NCBI GenBank assembly: GCA_016215705.1
Contig: JACRIR010000231.1
Span: forward strand, 1-13,774
DNA length: 13,774 nucleotides
Reading direction: 5' to 3'
DNA from: Candidatus Poribacteria bacterium
Lineage (GTDB): Bacteria > Abyssobacteria > SURF-5
Position numbers and translations under genes: made by a program
Shown here: positions 2,806 through 13,451 of the stretch, piece by piece
Numbering within the stretch: position 1 is the stretch's first letter
Layout: every line of letters begins with the position of its first letter
The notes under the pieces: generated by a model
Database searches by the model: none
What the model was told of the DNA's origin: nothing
What the model saw: the letters and a program-made list of their open reading frames with translations, nothing else

Positions 2806-4140
2806 CTATTCTCCAACACTCCTCCCAATAGACGCCAGCGACCTCGAGCGTTCGTTTTCGGGCAGGAAAAGGGTGCTCGATGCGGCAGGGATTATATACG
2901 TTGTGAAGTCGTTAGGCAAATTTGCCGTCGCCGCTCGATATGCTTCCTCAAACGAGGCAGCGGGCCGCATCTTCATCCGCTGTACGTCCAAGGGGTCTAA
3001 TCTTGAAATTAAAGCGATGTTGACCGACATGGCTTTCTCGAAAGCCGCGTATGCCGTCTGCCCATAAATATGATAGTTTGCGCGGAGTTCTTGTTCGAAC
3101 TCGATGGCGTCGTCGAACCTGAACCAGTCGATGAACCCCGGGTGGCCGAAGCCGTCCGCACACTCGGCAAGCACAATCATCCAACCTCCGGGCTTAGTGA
3201 CCGAGTGCGCGCTGTGAATCGCCTTATGAGCCTGTATGAAATTGATATCTTTGGGATATCCCCCACAACTCACAACGGTCAGATCGGCTTGCTCCGGAAC
3301 AACTATGCTGAAATTTTTGATGTAATGAAAGCATGCGGCCTCATGGGCCTTTATGAAATTGCCCGCAAAAACGGCCGCCAACTCTTTTTCGGGAGTCACT
3401 ATGCTATTTAGCATGAAATGGGGGCCAACCATTCCAGCGGCCTCGAGCATATCTTCATGCACGGGATTGCCGGCGAGTCGGGCGACCCGGGCATTGGGAT
3501 TGCGGCCGCGTCCGGGCGGCGGATTGAATACCAGCAGGTGGCTCTGCAGGCTGGCTTCGAGCGAACATACTCCCGGCATGATACTTTTCCGGCCTCCGCC
3601 AAATCCTGCGAAATAATGCGGGCTTACGGCGCCGGTGAGCACGATCCTGTCAGCTTCCGCCACCGTACGGTTGACAGCGACCTCTGTTCCTCTGCTCGTC
3701 TTGCCGTACGAAACGAGGTTGTCCCTGTTGCGCGAGTCATGGTCGATGGGGGCAAAACGACGGTAGAGTTGATCACCCAACAGACCACGATGTTCCTCTT
3801 TGGTTTGAGGTCGATGGATACCCAACGCGATCACGATTGTGATATTCCGGTCCGGGATTCCCGCCGCGTTCAACTCCTCGATGATGTGCGGCAGGAACAG
3901 ATGGCTCGAGGTCGCGCGCGTGCTATCGGAGGCGACGATGGCGACCCTCTTTGCGCCTGACACCACATCGGTCAGCGGAGGAGAATCTATGGGATTATCG
4001 AGTGCGCACTTTATGATGTGTGAAGTGTCATTGGCCACTGCCGGCGAACTCGGCGTGAGGAATTTCGGCTCACGTCCGAGTGGCGCATCCACGTCGACTT
4101 CTTCATGTCCGTAGTTCAGCCTATATTTGCGTTTGGTCAT
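2806..4140 (-). CDS. larA: LarA-family nickel-dependent lactate/2-hydroxyacid racemase
   Basis: The 444-residue protein carries the DUF2088/LarA signatures in order: ASDSTRATSSH (70-80, the SDxTR substrate-binding motif), GIHRP (107-111, catalytic His109), SPHYFAGFGGGRKSIMPG (173-190, with His175 and Lys185), His201 after the EASLQS stretch, and GGYPKDINFIQAHKA (293-307). These match LarA His108, His174, Lys184 and His200 with an offset of one; the lysine carries the nickel-pincer nucleotide cofactor and the second and third histidines frame the nickel. Length is close to the characterised enzymes. LarA interconverts D- and L-lactate; homologs act on other 2-hydroxyacids, so the substrate is not certain. 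The cofactor genes larB, larC and larE are not in this window. The gene is divergent from a carboxylate-type MFS transporter. The ribosome binding site before ATG 4140 is weak. It is the first gene of the leftward run. Confidence 0.88.
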   Translation of the reverse strand: MTKRKYRLNYGHEEVDVDAPLGREPKFLTPSSPAVANDTSHIIKCALDNPIDSPPLTDVVSGAKRVAIVASDSTRATSSHLFLPHIIEELNAAGIPDRNITIVIALGIHRPQTKEEHRGLLGDQLYRRFAPIDHDSRNRDNLVSYGKTSRGTEVAVNRTVAEADRIVLTGAVSPHYFAGFGGGRKSIMPGVCSLEASLQSHLLVFNPPPGRGRNPNARVARLAGNPVHEDMLEAAGMVGPHFMLNSIVTPEKELAAVFAGNFIKAHEAACFHYIKNFSIVVPEQADLTVVSCGGYPKDINFIQAHKAIHSAHSVTKPGGWMIVLAECADGFGHPGFIDWFRFDDAIEFEQELRANYHIYGQTAYAAFEKAMSVNIALISRLDPLDVQRMKMRPAASFEEAYRAATANLPNDFTTYIIPAASSTLFLPENERSRSLASIGRSVGE

Positions 4141-4200: not shown

Positions 4201-4230
4201 GGTCACTCTGAGCGAAGCGAAGAATCTCTC
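4201..4230. repeat. Dispersed repeat of the CTGAGCGAAGCGAAGAATC type
   Basis: The stretch GTCACTCTGAGCGAAGCGAA followed by GAATCTC matches a short repeat often seen in intergenic regions of many environmental bacteria (commonly GTCATTCTGAGCGAAGCGAA). It sits in the divergent gap between larA and the MFS gene. It should not be read as coding, although it is open in one frame and would give the familiar HSERSEESLF peptide. Its origin and function are unknown to me. Confidence 0.6.
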
Positions 4231-4285
4231 TTCTCCCTGTCAACTCGATCTTTGGCCTCTGACTTTCGCCCTCATTCTCTGTCTA

Positions 4286-4372: not shown

Positions 4373-5590
4373 ATGCAGCGCCGCGCCACGTTTTTCTATG
4401 GCTGGTTCATTGTCATGGCAAATTTCCTTATTCTCTTCTCGCTTCACGGCGTCATTATAAACACATTCGGTGTCTTCTTCAAGCCAGTGTCCGAAAGCAT
4501 GGGATGGAGCCGCGCGACATTTGCCGGGGCGCTCGGTATTGGAGCGCTCGCAATGGCGCTGGGAGCCCCTTTCGTTGGCAAAATGCTTGATAAGATTGGG
4601 GCAAGCAAGACCATGTTGGTTGGGGCGCTGCTTTGCGGCGCAGGAATGGGACTGCTCGGCGGCGCCACGCAACTCTCGCATTTCTATGCGCTTTTCGCCA
4701 TAGTGGGACTTGGATTATCCGCTTCGACGTCAATCCCTGTTTCTCTCGTGATTGCTAACTGGTTCGAGCGGAAACGAGGTCTTGCAATGGGTCTGTCTTT
4801 TACCGGGACCAGTCTCGGCGGCATGATTATGAATCCCGTGAATACGTACCTGATACAGGCATTCGGCTGGCGGGAATCATACGTTATCCTGGGAGTTGCA
4901 ATGATCCTGGTAACGGTTCCGCTGATTCTTCTTATCATACGGACGCGCCCCTCCGATATGAACCTCTTGCCCGACGGCAACGAGCCGGCGCAAAGGGCAA
5001 CCGAACCCATTGCGGGTCAAACCCTGCAGGAAGCGTTTCGCACCCCGACTTTCTGGTTCATAGCAGGAAACATGTTCCTCATTAATTTCATGGCCAACTC
5101 CGTAGGAGAACACGGCGTGCCCTATCTCACTGATATCGGCCATTCAGAAATGGCGGCGAGCATAGCCATAGGATTGTCGATGGGCTTCATGACACTGGGA
5201 AAACTCGGGTCCGGGCTGTCTGCCGACCGATGGGGAGCGCGCCCCACTTTCGTCGCAAGCTGCATCATGACCGCTGCCGGAATTGGCGTGCTTATGTTTG
5301 CCTCGAATTGGTGGATGCTCTGGCTCTTTGCGTTCATCTACGGGTTTCCGCAAGGCGGGCCACTCACGCTCACTCCCCTTGTCGTGGCCAACTGCCACGG
5401 ACTGGCGCATTTCGGACCCATCTTCGGGGTGATGACGCTCTTCTCCATTCTAGGGGCTGCGATAGGACCTATAATAGTCGGCAGAATGTACGACGTCAGT
5501 TCCTCTTATCAGAGCGCCTTTCTCTTGCTTATCGTAATAACGTTGGCGGGCAGCTACTGCATACACAAGGCGCGCGCGCCCCAGAGATAG
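4373..5590 (+). CDS. MFS transporter, monocarboxylate/OFA-type
   Basis: The 405-residue protein is hydrophobic throughout and fits the 12-helix major facilitator fold. The N-terminus FFYGWFIVMANF (7-18) is typical of the MCT/oxalate-formate antiporter branch. GKMLDKIGASK (about 69-79) corresponds to the MFS loop 2-3 motif, and SDMNLLPDGNEP (about 199-210) at the end of helix 6 resembles the MxLLPDG signature of monocarboxylate-type carriers. A second-half copy of the loop motif appears as GKLGSGLSADRWGARP (about 270-285). GGGAGG lies five bases before the ATG. Proposed role: cytoplasmic-membrane transport of a small carboxylate; the divergent larA makes lactate or another 2-hydroxyacid attractive, but that is inference from context only. 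Uptake versus exchange cannot be decided. Confidence 0.85.
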   Translation: MQRRATFFYGWFIVMANFLILFSLHGVIINTFGVFFKPVSESMGWSRATFAGALGIGALAMALGAPFVGKMLDKIGASKTMLVGALLCGAGMGLLGGATQLSHFYALFAIVGLGLSASTSIPVSLVIANWFERKRGLAMGLSFTGTSLGGMIMNPVNTYLIQAFGWRESYVILGVAMILVTVPLILLIIRTRPSDMNLLPDGNEPAQRATEPIAGQTLQEAFRTPTFWFIAGNMFLINFMANSVGEHGVPYLTDIGHSEMAASIAIGLSMGFMTLGKLGSGLSADRWGARPTFVASCIMTAAGIGVLMFASNWWMLWLFAFIYGFPQGGPLTLTPLVVANCHGLAHFGPIFGVMTLFSILGAAIGPIIVGRMYDVSSSYQSAFLLLIVITLAGSYCIHKARAPQR

Positions 5591-5694: not shown

Positions 5695-7224
5695 ATGACC
5701 CACGAAAATCAGAGGCAGCAATGGGACGTAATTGTTGTTGGTTCGGGTTTGGGAGGGCTAAGCTGCGCAGGATTGCTCTCCAAGAACGGGAAGAAGGTGC
5801 TTATACTTGAAAAGCACAAGAAGGTTGGGGGATATGCGCATCAATTCAAACGGAAAGCCGGCCACGATATCAAATACCACTTTGACGTTGCGCTCCATGT
5901 GACCGGCGCGATGGACGAAGGAGCCCCGAGCCGCCGAATTCTGGAGGAAATCGGAGTGTGGGATCGAATACGGGTTAAACGCCTTGACATAATGTATCGC
6001 TCGAGCTTCCCTGATTTCGAGATAACGGTCCCTGCGGACAAGGAATTGTTCAGGCAGAAGCTTTGCGCTCAGTTTCCGCAAGAAGCCGTCGCCATCAATT
6101 CTCTCTTCAAGACTGTCGAAACATTCGCAAATGAAATGGCGGCGTTGCTAAGGGCCGTCGTTCCCGGAGAGCCGCCGCAGTCGGACTTCGCTGAGAAATA
6201 CCCCACCCTCTCGAAATATATGGTCGCAACACTGCATGACCTCGTGTCCGACCATGTGAGCAATGAGAAACTTTCGGCGGTATTCTGTCAGCTCTGGCCC
6301 TATGTGGGACTTCCTCCGAAGCGGGTGTCGGCGTTCCTATATCTTCAGATGTGGTTGAGCTTCTTCACGGGAGGAGCCTACTATATTCAGGGTGGAGGCT
6401 ACGCGCTGAGCCAGGCTCTTGCCGGCATTGTCGAAGAGCGCGGCGGCAAAGTACTCACAAAAACGGAGGTCTCCCGGATACTTGTTGAAAACGGTCGCTG
6501 CTCGGGAGTCGAAACGGCAAATGGAGAAAAGTTTAAGGCGCCGATCATCGTGAGCAACGCCCCGGCGCCGGTCACTTTTGGTAAGCTCATTGACACTTCG
6601 TTGGTCGACCCCTCATATATGGAACAAGTGCAGAACACTGAACTGTCAATTTCGATCATTCAGGCATACATCGGCGTAAAGGGAACACCAAAGGAAATCG
6701 GGTTTGAAGACGACGAATACTTCATGAACATGGACTACGATGCCGAGGGACAATTCGACCGGATGCTTAAGGGGGATTACTCGAATGTCGCTTGTGTGAT
6801 GGCAAACAATACAGCCGTTAACCCGGGCGACACCCCGCCCGGCAGATCCATAATTGAAATCGCAATTCTGGCCGATGGGAAACAGTGGTGCGACCTGCCA
6901 CATGAGGAGTATCGCAAGAAGAAGGCCGAGGTTACAGAGTTGCTGGTTGACAAGTTTTCGGAGGTCATACCGGATATTCGTGATCGGATCGAGGTGATCG
7001 AGGTCGGCACCCCCCACACTATGAGGCGTTACACGGGCAATCCATGCGGAGCAGTCTATGGTTACGCCTCCACTCCGTCGGGACACTCAATATTCAGGCC
7101 GAGGCCGGACACGCCGGTGCCGGGCCTTTATCTCGCGAGTGCGTGGACCTTCCCCGGCCCCGGATTTGGCGGCACGCTTGCCGGCGGCGCAAACACGGCG
7201 GCAATTATCTTGAGAAAAGAATAG
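5695..7224 (+). CDS. FAD-dependent oxidoreductase, phytoene desaturase / RetSat-like
   Basis: The 509-residue protein opens with DVIVVGSGLGGLSCAGLLSK (11-30) and ILEKHKKVGGY (37-47), the dinucleotide-binding fold and GG motif of the amine-oxidase/CrtI flavoprotein superfamily. Near the C-terminus, VPGLYLASAWTFPGPGFGG (about 475-493) followed by LAGGANTA is the second FAD contact of phytoene desaturases, carotenoid isomerases and retinol saturases. Length fits these families (about 490-510). AGGAGG lies eight bases before the ATG. Such enzymes move or remove double bonds in polyprenoid or other unsaturated substrates. No phytoene synthase or prenyl transferase gene is nearby, so a carotenoid role is not supported by context and the substrate is open. 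A strong hairpin follows at 7243-7271, suggesting the gene ends its transcript. Confidence 0.85.
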   Translation: MTHENQRQQWDVIVVGSGLGGLSCAGLLSKNGKKVLILEKHKKVGGYAHQFKRKAGHDIKYHFDVALHVTGAMDEGAPSRRILEEIGVWDRIRVKRLDIMYRSSFPDFEITVPADKELFRQKLCAQFPQEAVAINSLFKTVETFANEMAALLRAVVPGEPPQSDFAEKYPTLSKYMVATLHDLVSDHVSNEKLSAVFCQLWPYVGLPPKRVSAFLYLQMWLSFFTGGAYYIQGGGYALSQALAGIVEERGGKVLTKTEVSRILVENGRCSGVETANGEKFKAPIIVSNAPAPVTFGKLIDTSLVDPSYMEQVQNTELSISIIQAYIGVKGTPKEIGFEDDEYFMNMDYDAEGQFDRMLKGDYSNVACVMANNTAVNPGDTPPGRSIIEIAILADGKQWCDLPHEEYRKKKAEVTELLVDKFSEVIPDIRDRIEVIEVGTPHTMRRYTGNPCGAVYGYASTPSGHSIFRPRPDTPVPGLYLASAWTFPGPGFGGTLAGGANTAAIILRKE

Positions 7225-7460: not shown

Positions 7461-8234
7461 ATGCAATACCTATTTGGCGATTCCGACGCGGCGGCGCAGC
7501 GCCTGAAGTTGGTCGCAGATGTTTTTGCCGGGACCACGAGAAGCTTTGTTCTCGATACGGTTATCGAAAAGCCTGATATCTTGGCGGACTTGGGATGTGG
7601 ACCCGGACACACTACGCGCCTCCTCGCAGAAACACTTCGGTGCGCACGCACAATCGGCTTAGATAACTCCGAACATTTCCTCTCGCTTGCTCGACAATCT
7701 GCGCAGGGCGGCGTTTCGTTCTTGTTCCATGACGTCTCATCTGTTCCCTTTCCCATGGAACAGGGCGACCTCTTATATTGCCGATTCCTGTTGAGTCATT
7801 TGAAGCATCCCCGGGCTCTCCTAAGCCGGTGGATGACACAATTGAAACAGGGAGGCCTCCTTCTAATTGAGGAGGTGGAGTGGATTCACACACAAAACGA
7901 CGACTTCGCCCTGTATCTCAGTATTGTGGAGGCTATGCTGCAAGACCAATCCGCAGAGTTGTATGTTGGTCGGGAACTTGATCGTCTGCGAGATAGCGAA
8001 ACGATGGGACGGCGAATAAGTCAAGTGGGCCGTTTGCGGGTATCGTATGATGACGCCGCAACGATGTTTTGCCTCAACATGCAAACGTGGAAACATCAGC
8101 CTTTTGTCCGCTCGAACTACTCCTTTTCCGCAATTACCAAACTGGAGGACGCTTTGAGGACTCTCAGCATGAAGAAGAGCGGCAAATCAGAAATTGAGTG
8201 GGGGCTGCGGCAGATCGTATTTGAACGAATATAG
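7461..8234 (+). CDS. Class I SAM-dependent methyltransferase
   Basis: This 257-residue protein has a Rossmann-type SAM site: ILADLGCGPGHTTRLLA (40-56, motif I), TIGLDNSEHF (64-73, with the acidic residue Asp68 that binds the ribose), FLFHDVSSVPFP (87-98) and DLLYCRFLLSHL (103-114, motif IV region). GGLLLIEEVEW (131-141) follows as the next strand. The C-terminal 110 residues carry no motif I know and probably hold substrate specificity. GAGGTG precedes the ATG by four bases. It is the first gene after the hairpin at 7243-7271 and lies 77 bases before the 157-residue gene. The substrate (small molecule or macromolecule) cannot be named. Confidence 0.83.
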   Translation: MQYLFGDSDAAAQRLKLVADVFAGTTRSFVLDTVIEKPDILADLGCGPGHTTRLLAETLRCARTIGLDNSEHFLSLARQSAQGGVSFLFHDVSSVPFPMEQGDLLYCRFLLSHLKHPRALLSRWMTQLKQGGLLLIEEVEWIHTQNDDFALYLSIVEAMLQDQSAELYVGRELDRLRDSETMGRRISQVGRLRVSYDDAATMFCLNMQTWKHQPFVRSNYSFSAITKLEDALRTLSMKKSGKSEIEWGLRQIVFERI

Positions 8235-8311
8235 AACCATCAGTAGGAGAATGATGCTGGGGGAATTGACATCGATTCATTCGGGCGACAACACCGAGGA
8301 GGCTTTCTAAA

Positions 8312-8785
8312 ATGACTGCTCGAGTCCCGAAAGTGAACCTCGAACACCAGGCGAACGGAGGCATCCTGCGATATCTCCGCAGCGGTTCGAAGGGCCATTC
8401 TCAACCAAGCGCAGCGCCGGAGGACATCCAGAATCCCTACTACGATCTCGGAACACATCCTGAGATCGTGGCGCGCATCTGGGATGAAATCACCGTCAAG
8501 CTGACGACGGACTGCCGTTGCGTGGTATATGGAGCGCCGGCGCTCGTTCACCCTGAATCAGGCATCATCTTCGGTTTCGCGGGTGGCACGCAGACTTATG
8601 CGCTCCGGCTCCCGGAGCCAGAGCGCCGGGAAGCCATCCGAAAAGGCGCCGAGCAAGTTCATACGTACATGGACGGCTCCAAGCTGGACCTCAAAGATTT
8701 TGGCAAAGAGTGGGTCTTCGGCGGATGGTTCGATATCGAAGCCGAATGGTGCCTGGCGGCATACGAATTTGCCGGCAATCCATAG
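8312..8785 (+). CDS. Conserved uncharacterised 157-residue protein
   Basis: No named domain is recognised. The sequence has the look of a conserved soluble family: NPYYDLGTHPEIVARIWDEI (41-60), CRCVVYGAPALVHPESGIIF (68-87), GFAGGTQTYALRLP (88-101), then LDLKDFGKEWVFGGWF (125-140) and AEWCLAAYEFAG (144-155). I recall similar proteins with GTHPdvvxrlWDEL and FAGGTxTYALRLP blocks in diverse bacteria, without known function. There is no signal peptide and no membrane segment. GGAGG stands nine bases before the ATG. It sits between the methyltransferase and the radical SAM pair, with a 120-base gap on its right that contains a small hairpin, so membership in the same operon is likely but unproven. 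Confidence 0.75.
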   Translation: MTARVPKVNLEHQANGGILRYLRSGSKGHSQPSAAPEDIQNPYYDLGTHPEIVARIWDEITVKLTTDCRCVVYGAPALVHPESGIIFGFAGGTQTYALRLPEPERREAIRKGAEQVHTYMDGSKLDLKDFGKEWVFGGWFDIEAEWCLAAYEFAGNP

Positions 8786-8870
8786 CAAATCGCTACGCGA
8801 TAAGTCGTGGCGCCAAGTAACCGACAATGCGAAAGAAAACTCTGAATCAGTGTCTGGTTGCATCAACGTG

Positions 8871-8889
8871 CGACCGGATTCTCCGGTCG
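8871..8889 (+). terminator. Small perfect hairpin before the radical SAM pair
   Basis: CGACCGGA (8871-8878) pairs fully with TCCGGTCG (8882-8889) around a TTC loop and is followed by TCTTTCG, a short imperfect T-rich stretch. It lies 20 bases before the first radical SAM start and could act as a weak terminator or attenuator, or limit access to the start codon. Confidence 0.35.
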
Positions 8890-8908
8890 TCTTTCGTGAA
8901 TCGAAGTG

Positions 8909-10183
8909 ATGAAGAAGATTTGGAAACCGGTTCTGCATAAAGCCATTACGGGGCAATGGCGCAGGTTTCTCATGAAGAAGATGCCTGCTCCATATCCGGG
9001 AAAGATGAAGAATCCCGGCCTGTACCTGCATGTACCTTTTTGCGAAAAGCTTTGCCCGTTTTGTCCGTACAACCGGGAAAAGTACGACACGGATAAGTAC
9101 GCGGAATATGAGAAATCGGTCCACAAAGAGATCAACCTTTACGCAAAGAACGTTCCCTCGCAGAAATACGTGTCGCTTTACATAGGTGGGGGAACTCCGA
9201 CAATCAACGTTCCGGGACTGGTTCGGATCATCCAACACATGAAAGCTTCTTTTGCGCTCGATGATTGCGATATATGTGTCGAATTTCACCCTTCCCATAT
9301 GGAAGAAGATTGCCTTAGAGCTTTGAAGCAGACGGGCGTAACACTTATATCCATCGGAGTAGAATCAACGAATGATGATCTTCTCAAGAGGCTCGGCAGA
9401 AACCATGACGGAAAGACGGCCTTGGAGTCCGTCCGGCGAGCGGTTTCCATGGGCTTCAGGTCAGTAAATGTCGATCTGATGTTTGTGCTTCCCGGCCAGA
9501 CTCTGGAACAACTCGACGAAGACCTGACGAGAATGTTGGGGGCCGGAATAGACCAGATATCAACGTACCCGATTTTCGGATTTCCTTATAGCGAGATGGG
9601 AATGGAGCAAGGAATCAGGGGAATAAGACGCCCTGATGAAGCCCTCATTCGAACCATGTTTGATCTCATCGCCATCAGATCACGCGAGTCCGGATTTGAG
9701 CGATGCGCAGTTTGGTCATTTCTGAAACCGAGTAGAAAGAAGTTCAGTTCCATAACCCGACACCATTACCTCGGTTTTGGCCCCAGCGCCGCGTCAATGA
9801 TCGGCGACCACTTCTATGTCAACACATTCTCCGTAAATGAATACGTGGAGGCTTTAAGTCACGGGCGCCCTGTGGCCCTTGTAATGGAAGTCCCCAAACG
9901 AATAGAAATGGCCTATTGGTTGTATTGGCGAGTCTATGAAATGCGCATTCCGAATGAAGAGTTTTCCGTCTTGTTTGAACAAGAACTTGAAGAAGTATTC
10001 GGCAGACTCATGCTTATCCCACGGGCGCTTTCTATGGCGGAGAAAAACGGACACGGATATGTCATAACCGAAGCCGGCGCATACTGGATTCATCGGATAC
10101 AAAATGAATATTCTCTGAACTACATCAATAGGCTGTGGGGAAGGTGCCGGGCAACACCGTGGCCGAACGAGGTTATCCTTTAG
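8909..10183 (+). CDS. HemN/HemW-like radical SAM protein
   Basis: The 424-residue protein has YLHVPFCEKLCPFCPYN (residues 39-55 when 8909 is the start), a CX3CX2C site for the radical-SAM [4Fe-4S] cluster, then YIGGGTPT (91-98) for SAM binding, SIGVESTNDDLLKRLGR, NVDLMFVLPGQT and DQISTYPIFGFPYSEMG, all hallmarks of the coproporphyrinogen-dehydrogenase-like family. HYLGFGPSAASM (about 285-296) parallels the YLGxGxGAxS region of HemW. The heme-binding HNxxYW motif of HemW is not seen, and the fourth cysteine of HemN (CX3CX2CXC) is a tyrosine, so neither classical function is safe. ATG 8909 is directly preceded by an in-frame GTG (8906), an alternative start; no good ribosome binding site is present. 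An ATG at 8972 is also possible. Four bases separate its stop from the next radical SAM gene. Confidence 0.83.
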   Translation: MKKIWKPVLHKAITGQWRRFLMKKMPAPYPGKMKNPGLYLHVPFCEKLCPFCPYNREKYDTDKYAEYEKSVHKEINLYAKNVPSQKYVSLYIGGGTPTINVPGLVRIIQHMKASFALDDCDICVEFHPSHMEEDCLRALKQTGVTLISIGVESTNDDLLKRLGRNHDGKTALESVRRAVSMGFRSVNVDLMFVLPGQTLEQLDEDLTRMLGAGIDQISTYPIFGFPYSEMGMEQGIRGIRRPDEALIRTMFDLIAIRSRESGFERCAVWSFLKPSRKKFSSITRHHYLGFGPSAASMIGDHFYVNTFSVNEYVEALSHGRPVALVMEVPKRIEMAYWLYWRVYEMRIPNEEFSVLFEQELEEVFGRLMLIPRALSMAEKNGHGYVITEAGAYWIHRIQNEYSLNYINRLWGRCRATPWPNEVIL

Positions 10184-10187
10184 CAAA

Positions 10188-11075
10188 ATGAGACTTAAAG
10201 AATTGATCAGCCACGTGGATTACGCAGTCAGGACTCTGGTTCTCAGGAAGCGAATCCCATACATGATAGGGATCATCCTGACGGACAAGTGCAATCTGAA
10301 CTGTGTCCATTGCCTGGGAAAGAATAAGGGGCAAGTGCATTGCGCATATGATGAGGCCGCAGCAGCGATGCAAGAAGCCTTCTCTCGCGGAAACCGATAC
10401 GTTTACTTTTCCGGCGGCGAACCACACCTATGGAAAGACACGGGACATACGCTCGGCGACCTGATCAGCCTGGCAAAAGACATCGGGTTCTTTGACGTGT
10501 TCGTGGCGACCAACGGAACGCATCCGCTAACCCGCAAAGATTGTCTGTACTATATCAGTATCGACGGCGTCCCCGAAGTGCACGATGAAATTCGCGGCGA
10601 ATCTTTCAGGGCCATCATGAAGAATATCGAGGATTCTCCCAGCCGCCGTATTTATGTTACCATCACCATCACAAAACGAAACCATTTGATTCTTGAGGAG
10701 TTTGCGAGAGACATCGCAGAAATCGGGAAGGTCAGAGGTATTTTGATCAATTTCTTCACAGGGGACGACTATCACGTAGAAGACCATGGGCTTTCCCCGG
10801 ACGAGAAAAGCAGGGTAATCGACTCACTCATAAAACTCAAGCATGAAGGACTCCCGTTTGAGATTTCCTATTCGGCGCTTGAAGCAATTCGCAAGAACGA
10901 CTGGAAAAGGCCCATTGCATCGCTCGAGTTGTTCTTGAACGGAAGGGTATATACGTGTTGCCGCGACTACGGTCAGCAGGAAATATGCAATAATTGCGGC
11001 TACGGAGAGTGCGTCGAAATATCGCAAATCCTCAAACTGAGGCCCGATGCCCTCATGAGAGTCTTCAGGACTTGA
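10188..11075 (+). CDS. Radical SAM protein with cysteine-rich C-terminus
   Basis: The 295-residue protein has the cluster motif CNLNCVHC (35-42), SGGEPHLW (75-82), VATNGTH (106-112) and SIDGVPEVHDEIRG (124-137), the normal order of MoaA/PqqE/HpnH-type radical SAM enzymes. The C-terminus (residues 257-275) has Cys257, Cys258, Cys267, Cys270 and Cys275 in the pattern CC-x8-C-x2-C-x4-C, which could bind an auxiliary Fe-S cluster in the manner of SPASM or twitch domains, though the spacing is not the standard one. The start is four bases after the stop of the preceding radical SAM gene and has no clear ribosome binding site, so translational coupling is likely. A hairpin with T-rich sequence follows the stop. 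The substrate is unknown; no precursor peptide of a RiPP system was convincingly found. Confidence 0.83.
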   Translation: MRLKELISHVDYAVRTLVLRKRIPYMIGIILTDKCNLNCVHCLGKNKGQVHCAYDEAAAAMQEAFSRGNRYVYFSGGEPHLWKDTGHTLGDLISLAKDIGFFDVFVATNGTHPLTRKDCLYYISIDGVPEVHDEIRGESFRAIMKNIEDSPSRRIYVTITITKRNHLILEEFARDIAEIGKVRGILINFFTGDDYHVEDHGLSPDEKSRVIDSLIKLKHEGLPFEISYSALEAIRKNDWKRPIASLELFLNGRVYTCCRDYGQQEICNNCGYGECVEISQILKLRPDALMRVFRT

Positions 11076-11178: not shown

Positions 11179-11262
11179 ATGGACAATAGATTGCTGGGTG
11201 TATGCGGTCTTTATTGCGGCGCATGTTATCATTACCGCAGACTCGAGACAGAGAGCGCCTGA
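11179..11262 (+). pseudogene. DUF3795 N-terminal fragment, disrupted
   Basis: From ATG 11179 the frame encodes 27 residues with VCGLYCGACYHYR before a TGA at 11260-11262. CGLYCGAC (CX3CX2C) is the hallmark start of DUF3795 proteins, which normally run to roughly 80-150 residues with several more cysteine pairs. In the neighbouring frame the sequence continues as APEPCEHGCHKVMRKG without a stop and runs directly into the QueG-like gene, so a one-base shift followed by a deletion is one reading. A short genuine peptide is less likely. It is a diverged paralog of the intact DUF3795 gene at 12052 (about 8 of the first 16 positions identical), not a recent copy. Confidence 0.5.
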
Positions 11263-11308
11263 ACCATGCGAACACGGATGCCATAAGGTCATGAGAAAGG
11301 GGATTTCG

Positions 11309-12016
11309 ATGATTGACTCGAAACTTGTGAAAGAAACTGTTAAGGCTCTCGGCGCCGACCTTTGTGGCGTCGCGCCCGTGGAGAGATTCGGCGGAGCCCC
11401 TGAGGGATTTCACCCAACTGACATTTGGAGCTCCTGCAAATCGGTGATCGTGTTTGCGAAAAAGTTGCCTTCGCAATCGCTTTTCGCCGATAACTGCATT
11501 CCCTACACCTTCGTGAACACCATGCTGACACAGGAAGTTGACTGGCTTATCATAGAGATATCTCTGAAACTGGAAGCAATGGGCATTGCGAACGTTCCCA
11601 TCCCGTCGGATGACCCCTATTTACACTGGGAAGCCGACCGCTCATACGGCAGGGCGATATTGTCAATGAAACACGCGGGCTATCTCGCCGGCCTGGGAGT
11701 ACTCGGGAAAAACACGCTCCTCATCAACGGAGACTACGGGAATATGATCCAGATCGGCGCTGTGTTGGTGGCCGCAGAACTGGAGCCGGATCCGATTGCG
11801 ACATACGAAGCATGCATGGCGGACTGCATACTTTGTCTTGATTCGTGCCCGGCGCAAGCGCTCGACGGCGTGACAGTAAATCAGCAACTGTGCAGGCCGC
11901 TGTCGAATTATAAAACGGAGAAGGGCTACATCCTCAAGAAGTGTTACGAGTGCCGAAAGGTCTGCCCGAATGCGCTGGGCATAGTAGGCGAAAGGCGAAG
12001 GAGCACACAAACGTGA
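11309..12016 (+). CDS. QueG-like double [4Fe-4S] cluster protein
   Basis: I place the start at ATG 11309 (AAAGGGGA just upstream), giving 235 residues; the frame is open back to 11198, but the extra part overlaps the DUF3795 remnant. The protein resembles epoxyqueuosine reductase (COG1600): ALGADLCGVAPVERF (13-27), SCKSVIVFAKKLP (42-54), GLGVLGKNTLLINGDYGN (128-145), then two cluster motifs, CMADCILCLDSCP (169-181) and CYECRKVCP (212-220), with Cys195 between them, eight cysteines in all. That suits two [4Fe-4S] clusters. True QueG reduces epoxyqueuosine in tRNA with cobalamin and is longer (about 300-380 residues); this protein lacks the C-terminal part and shows no tRNA-binding tail, so a different redox role is equally possible. 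It is followed after 35 bases by an intact DUF3795 gene. Confidence 0.78.
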   Translation: MIDSKLVKETVKALGADLCGVAPVERFGGAPEGFHPTDIWSSCKSVIVFAKKLPSQSLFADNCIPYTFVNTMLTQEVDWLIIEISLKLEAMGIANVPIPSDDPYLHWEADRSYGRAILSMKHAGYLAGLGVLGKNTLLINGDYGNMIQIGAVLVAAELEPDPIATYEACMADCILCLDSCPAQALDGVTVNQQLCRPLSNYKTEKGYILKKCYECRKVCPNALGIVGERRRSTQT

Positions 12017-12051
12017 CAGCGGTTTGGTTGCTTCAGGATGGAGGTATCGAA

Positions 12052-12357
12052 ATGACTGACAAGAATTTGGCGGCGGCATGCGGGTTAGACTGCGGCTCTT
12101 GCGAACAGCTCGGGAAATCGTGCGCCGGGTGTGGCGGCGTGAAGGGCAAGCCTTTCTGGACAGCTCATGCGGGAGTCGAAACTTGTCCTCTGTACGATTG
12201 CTGTGTGAACCAGAGGCAGCTTGAGCACTGCGGCCGGTGTGATGAGCTTCCTTGTAAGATGTTCAACGAGTTCTATGACCCGGCCCTCAGCCCGGAAGAG
12301 GCACAGAAATCGATCCGTTCCCGCATAGAAGCGCTCAGGAAGAGGGGACATATCTGA
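12052..12357 (+). CDS. DUF3795 cysteine-rich small protein
   Basis: The start is ATG 12052, supported by GGAGGT six bases upstream; the open frame extends further back, but there it overlaps the QueG-like gene. The 101-residue product has eleven cysteines: CGLDCGSC (10-17), CAGC (24-27), Cys45, Cys50, Cys51, CGRC (60-63) and Cys68. CGLDCGSC and LPCKMFNEFYDP match the DUF3795 family, whose members are thought to bind metal or Fe-S clusters; no function is established to my knowledge. The C-terminal 30 residues form a basic, helix-like tail. It probably shares a transcript with the QueG-like gene 35 bases upstream, suggesting a linked redox or metal-related job. Confidence 0.82.
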   Translation: MTDKNLAAACGLDCGSCEQLGKSCAGCGGVKGKPFWTAHAGVETCPLYDCCVNQRQLEHCGRCDELPCKMFNEFYDPALSPEEAQKSIRSRIEALRKRGHI

Positions 12358-12394
12358 ACGGTGTGTCGCCCAGATATCCTGGCTGCGAGAAACA

Positions 12395-12422
12395 TGGATT
12401 CCCGCTTTCGCAGGAATGACAA
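12395..12422. repeat. Dispersed TGGATTCCCGCTTTCGC-type repeat
   Basis: TGGATTCCCGCTTTCGCAGG followed by AATGACAA matches a widespread bacterial intergenic repeat whose reverse strand reads as the familiar IPAKAGIH peptide. The inner part is a palindrome: 12398-12405 pairs with 12410-12417 except for one C-A mismatch, with a TTTC loop. It lies 37 bases after the DUF3795 stop codon and could act as a transcript end. The rest of the gap 12358-12644 holds the promoter listed next and no gene I can support. Confidence 0.65.
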
Positions 12423-12526
12423 AGACCCGTGAATCCTCCGACAATCATGCCCCCATGTGGTAGGAAACTCACAGGGATTCATTTGGGCAACACCCCGTGA
12501 ACAGTCTCCGCCGGAACAGTTCTTCG

Positions 12527-12556
12527 TTGACTATCGACTCTCCTCCCGAATAGAAT
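12527..12556 (+). promoter_or_regulatory. Candidate sigma70 promoter for the GDPD/amidohydrolase pair
   Basis: TTGACT (12527-12532) and TAGAAT (12551-12556), each five of six consensus positions, lie 18 bases apart. Transcription would begin near 12563, about 80 bases before the preferred GDPD start at 12645. This agrees with a new transcription unit after the repeat at 12395-12422. Confidence 0.5.
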
Positions 12557-12644
12557 ACACGCGATATGAACACGCCCGAATTTGCAGAACCGGGATGGAA
12601 TCCGAAAGGAAGGCTGCGCCAAAGGAGCAGGAGCGATACACTTC

Positions 12645-13451
12645 ATGAAAACAAGATTCTTTAGTGGGCCGAAGCCAAGGATGTTCGGACACCGAGGCTC
12701 GAGCGGCAACGCGCCCGAAAACACGCTGACCGCCTTCGAGATGGCCGTCGAGGCGGGCGCAGATATTCTCGAGATGGACGTCTATGCGACCCGCGATGGA
12801 CACATTGTCGTCATGCACGATCAAATGCTCGAAAGCACGACGAACGGCGCAGGGCCGGTCTCGTCCATAACCCTTGCGGATTTGAAGCAATTGGATGCGG
12901 GCTATCGGTTCACGCCCGATAAGGGCAAGACGTTTCCATTCCGGAGCAAGGGAATTCGAGTGCCGACTCTGCGCGAGGTCATAGATCGGTTCCCGGATAT
13001 CCCGTTTAATATCGAAGTGAAACAGAATGAACCGAGGATCGAGCGGGCAACCTTCGAGCTGCTCAAGGAACTCGGCCATGCGGAAATAACGCTGTTGGCT
13101 TCTGAACACGATTTCATAATGGAGAGGATACGTCAACTCGACGCGGACATTCCGACTAATTTTTGTTCGAGCGAGGCGCTCGAATTCCTCCAGCGGCTGC
13201 ACCAGGACAAATGGCGTGATTATGATCCACTGGGAGACGCGCTCCAGATTCCCGAGGAGTATTACGACATTCCGGTGTTGACGCCGGCATTGGTGGAAGC
13301 CGCCCACCGCCTCGGCATCGAGGTCCACGCCTGGACGATAAACGAAGAAGCGGACATTCGCAGGCTGTTGGAAATGGGCGTTGACGGAATAATGACGGAC
13401 TATCCGGAACGGCTTGCTAAGGTTGTCCGAGGAATGGGACAGCGACTCTGA
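12645..13451 (+). CDS. Glycerophosphodiester phosphodiesterase
   Basis: I prefer ATG 12645 (AGGAG eleven bases upstream), giving 268 residues; the frame is open to 12582, but the extra 21 residues are not family-like. GDPD hallmarks are in order: FGHRGSSGNAPENTLTAF (14-31, catalytic His16-Arg17 and Glu25-Asn26-Thr27), EMDVYATRDGHIVVMHD (43-59, metal ligands Glu43 and Asp45 and catalytic His58), PFNIEVKQ (120-127, Glu124 as metal ligand) and AWTINEEADIRRLLEMGVDG (229-248), ending GIMTDYPERL. The enzyme hydrolyses glycerophosphodiesters from phospholipid turnover to glycerol-3-phosphate and an alcohol, using divalent metal. There is no signal peptide, so it is probably cytoplasmic. Length is normal for the family. 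An amidohydrolase gene starts 19 bases after its stop, so the two likely form one operon. Confidence 0.92.
   Translation: MKTRFFSGPKPRMFGHRGSSGNAPENTLTAFEMAVEAGADILEMDVYATRDGHIVVMHDQMLESTTNGAGPVSSITLADLKQLDAGYRFTPDKGKTFPFRSKGIRVPTLREVIDRFPDIPFNIEVKQNEPRIERATFELLKELGHAEITLLASEHDFIMERIRQLDADIPTNFCSSEALEFLQRLHQDKWRDYDPLGDALQIPEEYYDIPVLTPALVEAAHRLGIEVHAWTINEEADIRRLLEMGVDGIMTDYPERLAKVVRGMGQRL

Follow-up and report, generated by a model that had tools for sequence, protein, structure and literature searches.

The closest described relatives of the first of the two proteins considered here are HemN-like, class C radical S-adenosylmethionine (SAM) enzymes, namely MenK, MenK2 and MqnK, which are of the menaquinone methyltransferase (MKMT) type, together with CgdH2 of Campylobacter. 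The present analysis concerns a stretch of 13,774 nucleotides, hereafter the window, which is the whole contig JACRIR010000231.1 of a 5.47-Mb draft genome of a Candidatus Poribacteria bacterium. Two adjacent genes in the window, rS1 and rS2, encode radical SAM proteins. By sequence comparison, neither reaches any curated family cut-off, and the pair is an uncharacterised radical SAM module.

With the MenK/MenK2/MqnK and CgdH2 proteins, its nearest clade, rS1 shares the motifs Q.[ST].YP and NxFxxxxY and the second-SAM tyrosine in LYxH. It differs from the MKMTs in carrying CPxCPY rather than CxxCxF and in lacking YFxxxRxE and the arginine of RxSxGxQ. Moreover, it has its own SSxTR motif, an invariant Trp269 and a radical SAM partner gene, and it occurs in genomes without UbiA. 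Two-gene arrangements of a related kind are also known. STM4012/STM4011 are two neighbouring uncharacterised genes in which a HemN-like protein stands beside another radical SAM protein. However, rS1 scores 130 bits against a cut-off of 380 bits for that system, the families listed for rS2 do not include STM4011, and the STM4012/STM4011 naming was not found in the literature searched. C10P and C10Q, a proven two-component cyclopropanase acting in CC-1065 cyclopropanation (PMC6050322), likewise pair a HemN-like enzyme with another protein, which in that system is a methyltransferase; the conserved partner of rS1 is instead a radical SAM protein. Finally, rS2 shares its fold with twitch/SPASM proteins such as BlsE and SkfB and has PTO1314 as its best curated model, but differs from these proteins in cysteine spacing and in its PTO1314 score.

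Distribution and Linkage of the Pair

The gene rS1 (8909-10183, + strand) encodes a HemN-like radical SAM protein of 424 amino acids from ATG, with the motif CxxxCPxCPYN (PF04055, E 2.5e-24); an alternative GTG start at 8906 would give an open reading frame (ORF) at 8906-10183. Its stop is separated by four bases (10184-10187, +), a spacing indicative of tight coupling, from the start of rS2 (10188-11075, +). The latter encodes a radical SAM protein of 295 amino acids with CxxxCxxC and a C-terminal four-cysteine site (PF04055, E 2e-15).

An rS1 alignment was scanned against 84,980 species genomes, and the neighbourhood counts rest on the best 80 loci. Forty-eight of these, with two from earlier searches, constitute the 50 rS1-family loci (L037-L084, L092 and L108), which include full or truncated genes; the remaining loci are clearly HemW-like or other HemN-like. 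A further, divergent member of the family (L085) has no rS2. An rS2 homologue adjoins rS1 in 37 of the 50 loci and in none of the HemW-like ones. In the closest clade (L039-L051, 47-62% identity), rS2 lies beside rS1 in 12 of 13 untruncated loci. In two of the 13 family loci without rS2 (L052 and L060), the contig ends inside rS1 or about 135 bp past it.

The pair-bearing records are labelled as Thermodesulfobacteriota, Pseudomonadota, Acidobacteriota, Planctomycetota, Hydrogenedentota, Lentisphaerota, Omnitrophota, Elusimicrobiota, Actinomycetota, Chloroflexota, Bacillota, Verrucomicrobiota and WOR-3; many are metagenome-assembled genomes (MAGs), so that individual phylum labels may be wrong. 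One extra pair (L127) was found in a sample of another phylum. Both gene orders occur, and the two genes share a strand in all 31 measured pairs, window included. Of the 31 gaps between them, 28 fall in the range -49 to +115 bp, the exceptions being a lipoprotein-like ORF (L041), which found no support in Pfam or in PDB sequence searches and for which no fold is claimed, an inserted exported-protein gene (L069) and a transposase-like insertion (L051). In L051, the gene at 11414-12910, judged transposase-like by sequence, splits rS1 from the rest of rS2, leaving an N-terminal rS2 fragment (11254-11475) beside rS1. The distances within the two families are correlated (Mantel r 0.72, with none of 2000 permutations as high), to which host kinship contributes. 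On this comparison, rS1 and rS2 are a genuine, widely shared two-gene unit.

Carriage on plasmids or phages was also considered and rejected. Plasmid and viral-contig collections held no match to rS2; six plasmid sequences match rS1 at about 26-30% identity, of which three are annotated as HemW, and viral contigs held no rS1-like sequence above 31%.

The HemN-like Protein rS1

The best curated models all match rS1 below their cut-offs. The closest is PRK08629 (198 bits against 355), followed by HutW TIGR04107 (163.4 against 400), HemW TIGR00539 (148.1 against 205.4) and HemN TIGR00538 (115.4 against 324.95). A Pfam scan of all 47 rS1-family members returned PF04055 and PF13353 alone, with no HemN C-terminal domain. 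The predicted structure (pLDDT, the predicted local distance difference test, 94.8) nevertheless has the same whole-length fold as HemN: the top PDB match is 1olt (Z 33.3, root-mean-square deviation 3.4 over 376 residues), the next entry reaches Z 15.2, and the equivalent of HemN Tyr56 is kept, sequence identity to HemN being 22%.

In a tree of 77 rows, the 47 rS1 proteins are monophyletic (support 99/97) and separate from the HemW clade (97/97). They group with two MKMT-type proteins (99/93), a sister relation that holds among the groups in the tree; HutW, STM4012, HemZ, NosN and C10P were compared by score alone. The family has its own signature, consisting of CPxCPY, SSxTR (with S/T allowed) and the invariant Trp269, His395 and Trp410. 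Judged from these comparisons, rS1 is a HemN-like clade of its own, to be filed under none of MKMT, HemN, HemW and HutW. The departure from HemN and HemW that had been proposed from the window alone is thus borne out.

The rS1 profile also detects the class C methylase NocN (E 4.1e-38). In NocN, Tyr34, Tyr96, Asp196 and Ser225 contact the second SAM molecule (SAM-II), Arg153 holds its methionine part and Tyr276 is catalytic (PMC12871812). When residue equivalence is read by eye from the alignment, the four contacts are kept in all 47 rS1 proteins as Tyr39, Tyr91, Asp189 and Ser/Thr218, and the SAM-I cysteines (CxxxCxxC) are likewise present in 47 of 47. Thus, a two-SAM mode of action is probable for rS1. 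It differs from NocN and NosN in the absence of Arg153 and of the catalytic Tyr276, and no thiopeptide genes were noticed nearby.

The Partner Protein rS2

The best curated model for rS2 is PTO1314 (TIGR03961), at 55.5 bits against a cut-off of 306. Its predicted structure (pLDDT 92.7) is closest to BlsE (7vob, Z 22.6 over 256 residues) and SkfB (Z 20.9), and it also matches SuiB, tetraether synthase, viperin and MoaA.

Cys257, Cys267 and Cys270 are invariant in 33 homologues, 32 of which retain the full set of four C-terminal cysteines. The fourth lies at 258 or 260, as CC becomes CGRC in a Bacillota lineage with a shift of two positions. The resulting spacing, CC or CGRC followed by CxxCGY, is unlike the standard SPASM/twitch motif, in agreement with the non-standard C-terminal set noticed in the original prediction, and the cysteines would fit a putative metal or Fe-S site.

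A solo rS2-like subfamily was also seen (L128-L148 and L008-L011), many members of which end in CGFAAHxE(IS) or CGFTPVAEAS and have no obvious constant neighbour. Among 297 sampled genomes of another phylum, 21 of 22 matches belonged to this subfamily, with no rS1 within 1.5 kb, L127 alone being a true pair.

Recurrent Neighbours of the Pair

Several genes recur around the family in subsets of loci. A small XRE-type regulator lies near the pair in nine Bacillota loci (L057, L059, L062, L071, L074, L080, L082, L083 and L084), usually immediately upstream. An exported protein of about 186-210 amino acids without a Pfam match overlaps or abuts rS1/rS2 in four loci (L061 8406-9011, L069 11170-11802, L076 9451-10011 and L092 8481-9056), and a likely broken, truncated copy of its gene lies at 7010-7258 of L077. 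Its resemblance to START/SRPBCC-like proteins, seen by eye only, was not upheld by Pfam and PDB sequence searches. In a Clostridia and a Dojkabacteria record (L078 3164-4276 and L079 11383-12723), solo rS1 has a YibE/F membrane protein directly after it, and genes of the ZIP type come after rS1 in L053 and L072, that of L053 being read from sequence. Overall, these recurrent neighbours give a hint that the substrate belongs to the envelope or is hydrophobic. A metal link through ZIP, FeoB and CobW neighbours, identified from sequence and of which only ZIP is Pfam-confirmed, was set aside, as each occurs once or twice.

Proposed Mechanism

The reading favoured here, with moderate confidence, is that rS1 and rS2 form a self-contained module of two enzymes that moves horizontally, with rS1 performing two-SAM chemistry of the HemN/class C type and rS2 carrying out a further radical step. 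The mechanism of rS1 is modelled on HemN and NocN; co-occurrence, clade and cysteine facts come from the comparisons above. By analogy with these enzymes, rS1 would bind two SAM molecules at once and cleave one to a 5'-deoxyadenosyl radical, which would take a hydrogen from the methyl group of the other. The resulting SAM-CH2 radical would give a one-carbon unit to an unsaturated carbon of the substrate, or take a hydrogen from it; the substrate would be a small and probably hydrophobic molecule. rS2 would bind one SAM at its N-terminal cluster and, with the C-terminal cysteines, hold an auxiliary Fe-S cluster, performing a second radical step on the same molecule, such as oxidation, decarboxylation or C-C bond formation. 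Since some lineages keep rS1 alone, it would act first or independently. The pair as a whole probably adds or rearranges carbon on a small molecule.

Several observations weigh against this module. The equivalent of NocN Arg153 is Leu, Met or Gln in most rS1 proteins and Arg in only 3 of 47, and that of the catalytic Tyr276 is Ser, Gly or Thr; a second SAM in a methylating pose is accordingly putative. The second cluster of rS2 is predicted from its cysteines alone. Additionally, no substrate gene is consistently linked to the pair, and several genomes have rS1 without any rS2. In these rS1-only genomes, no family-level match to rS2 was found elsewhere, the leftovers being frames of 467-536 amino acids as against about 300 for rS2.

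A more specific version can be offered tentatively: an unnamed, horizontally spread two-radical-enzyme system for carbon modification of a lipid of the envelope or another hydrophobic molecule, possibly with its own exported accessory protein in a few lineages.

Alternative Explanations

One alternative is that rS1 is a menaquinone methyltransferase of the MenK/MqnK type and that the pair makes a modified menaquinone. The closest curated model, PRK08629, whose cut-off the two MKMT-type proteins of the tree exceed, and the tree grouping speak for it, as do two motifs from the published table of MKMT and HemW diagnostics (PMC10320005): NxFxxxxY is found in 44 of 47 rS1 proteins, window included, and QxTxYPLx, exact in 20 of 47 and present in the window as QISTYPI, is found in 45 of 47 in the relaxed form Q.[ST].YP. 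Both are nearly absent from HemW. The two MKMT-type proteins carry YFxxxRxE, GxxFxxxYxGGGT and RxSxGxQxF in addition to QxTxYPL and NxFxxxxY. In the rS1 family, however, LYxHxPFCxxxCxxCxF occurs in 0 of 47 members (the CPY variant in 47 of 47), YFxxxRxE in 0, RxSxGxQxFxxxxL in 1 and GxxFxxxYxGGGT in 3. Prenylquinones require UbiA-type prenyltransferases. A UbiA-family gene is present in 20 of 26 rS1 genomes, but a prenylquinone substrate is disfavoured because it is absent from the other six, three of which bear the full pair, one being the isolate Anaerovirgula multivorans. The menaquinone role is unlikely.

A similarly unlikely role is the tailoring of a ribosomally synthesized and post-translationally modified peptide by both enzymes. 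It draws on the likeness of rS2 to peptide maturases of the SPASM/twitch kind, SkfB and SuiB among them, and on the HemN-like NosN and NocN, which act on a peptide. Nevertheless, when all loci were compared, no small ORF (20-100 amino acids) within 1.5 kb of the pair proved conserved, and the neighbour maps show no recurrent transporter or peptidase gene. Among the 1528 small ORFs compared, the only similarities were shadow frames of the XRE gene, loci close to identical with one another, and a handful of matches that were short or of low complexity.

A role of rS1 in heme chaperoning or heme degradation, of the HemW, CgdH2 or HutW/ChuW type, is more improbable still. All 47 members show family-level similarity to HutW and HemW, but rS1 of the window scores below both cut-offs, the family lies outside the HemW clade, and the HemW heme motif HNxxYW, carried by nearly all HemW-like loci, is found in none of the 47. 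Moreover, rS1 occurs in a Dojkabacteria genome of 1.0 Mb.

Local History of the Locus

The original prediction had placed rS1 and rS2 in a possible four-gene pathway with two genes upstream. These are a class I SAM methyltransferase (7461-8234, +; Methyltransf_11, E 2.3e-16) and an ORF of 157 amino acids without a Pfam or NCBIfam match (8312-8785, +). All four ORFs are present, with the radical SAM genes four bases apart and PF04055 matches far above the cut-off, and no named family fits the pair. Nevertheless, the methyltransferase and the 157-amino-acid gene occur near 0 of the 50 rS1 loci, so that the four genes are together nowhere else among them; what survives of the proposed set is rS1 and rS2, and their two upstream companions are, judged by these neighbourhoods, chance neighbours outside the unit.

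The comparison set for the host phylum comprised three genomes. Homologues of the methyltransferase in the two nearest genomes (58% and 53%) lie at other loci without radical SAM genes. In both relatives (L180, 5150-5848, and L181), a second, different methyltransferase-like gene follows it. These two genomes (G001 and G002), which are of the same family as the window, contain no rS2, no 157-amino-acid gene and no rS1-family gene, the match in G001 reaching only 28%. G002 keeps LarA, MFS, the FAD protein, the QueG-like protein and DUF3795 in the same order, and a putative membrane protein of 438 amino acids takes the place of the four genes between the FAD and QueG-like genes. The content of G and C at codon position 1 is lower in rS1 and rS2 than in the other genes of the window, and rS1 is lowest at position 3. 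The nearest rS1 among the best 80 loci (62%) belongs to an Elusimicrobia MAG. No mobile element insertion was seen at the locus. The simplest account would be that the pair was acquired into a variable slot.

The possibility that the methyltransferase works with the HemN-like protein, as C10Q does with C10P, is very improbable and already largely refuted: in its favour are the shared strand, the close spacing of the genes (77, 120 or 123, and 4 bp) and the cyclopropanase precedent, and against it the missing linkage, the separate methyltransferase loci of both nearest genomes, the unrelated gene in the G002 slot and the base composition of rS1/rS2, which differs from most of the window.

The 157-amino-acid protein had been described as uncharacterised and conserved. 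This description is only weakly borne out: the protein has no match in 144 other genomes, plasmids or viral contigs, and 372 genomes of another phylum yielded a single full-length relative (38%) plus three partial relatives. The codon fit of the ORF is best in its own frame; it is rare and probably coding.

Other Features of the Window

On the left, the pair and its chance neighbours are flanked by a CrtI/CrtISO-like FAD protein (5695-7224, +; 79% protein identity in a related genome). On the right lies a QueG-like iron-sulfur protein (11309-12016, +; 74% in a related genome), whose homologue in the other related genome (67%) is on a different contig. A LarA homologue of the nickel-pincer type (2806-4140, -) is closest to LarAH10 and below its cut-off (453/540). 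A monocarboxylate-type transporter of the major facilitator superfamily (MFS; 4373-5590) stands beside LarA and the CrtI-like protein, and this block is kept in a related genome. A LarA-like gene is also found near the rS1/rS2 pair in L073. The stretches 4202-4240 and 12383-12440 have several matches in two related genomes at 87-97% identity and are probably dispersed repeats.

Conclusions

HemN-like proteins are often annotated as coproporphyrinogen III oxidase, though several clades perform other chemistry. The rS1/rS2 genes lie adjacent, at about 2.2 kb in total, and are present in the cultured Desulfosarcina alkanivorans, Desulforamulus aeronauticus, Heliobacterium, Clostridium and Anaerovirgula; this adjacency, small size and range of cultured hosts make the pair open to direct testing. 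A conserved HemN-like clade with its own radical SAM partner would mark a reaction common to bacteria of very different phylum labels.

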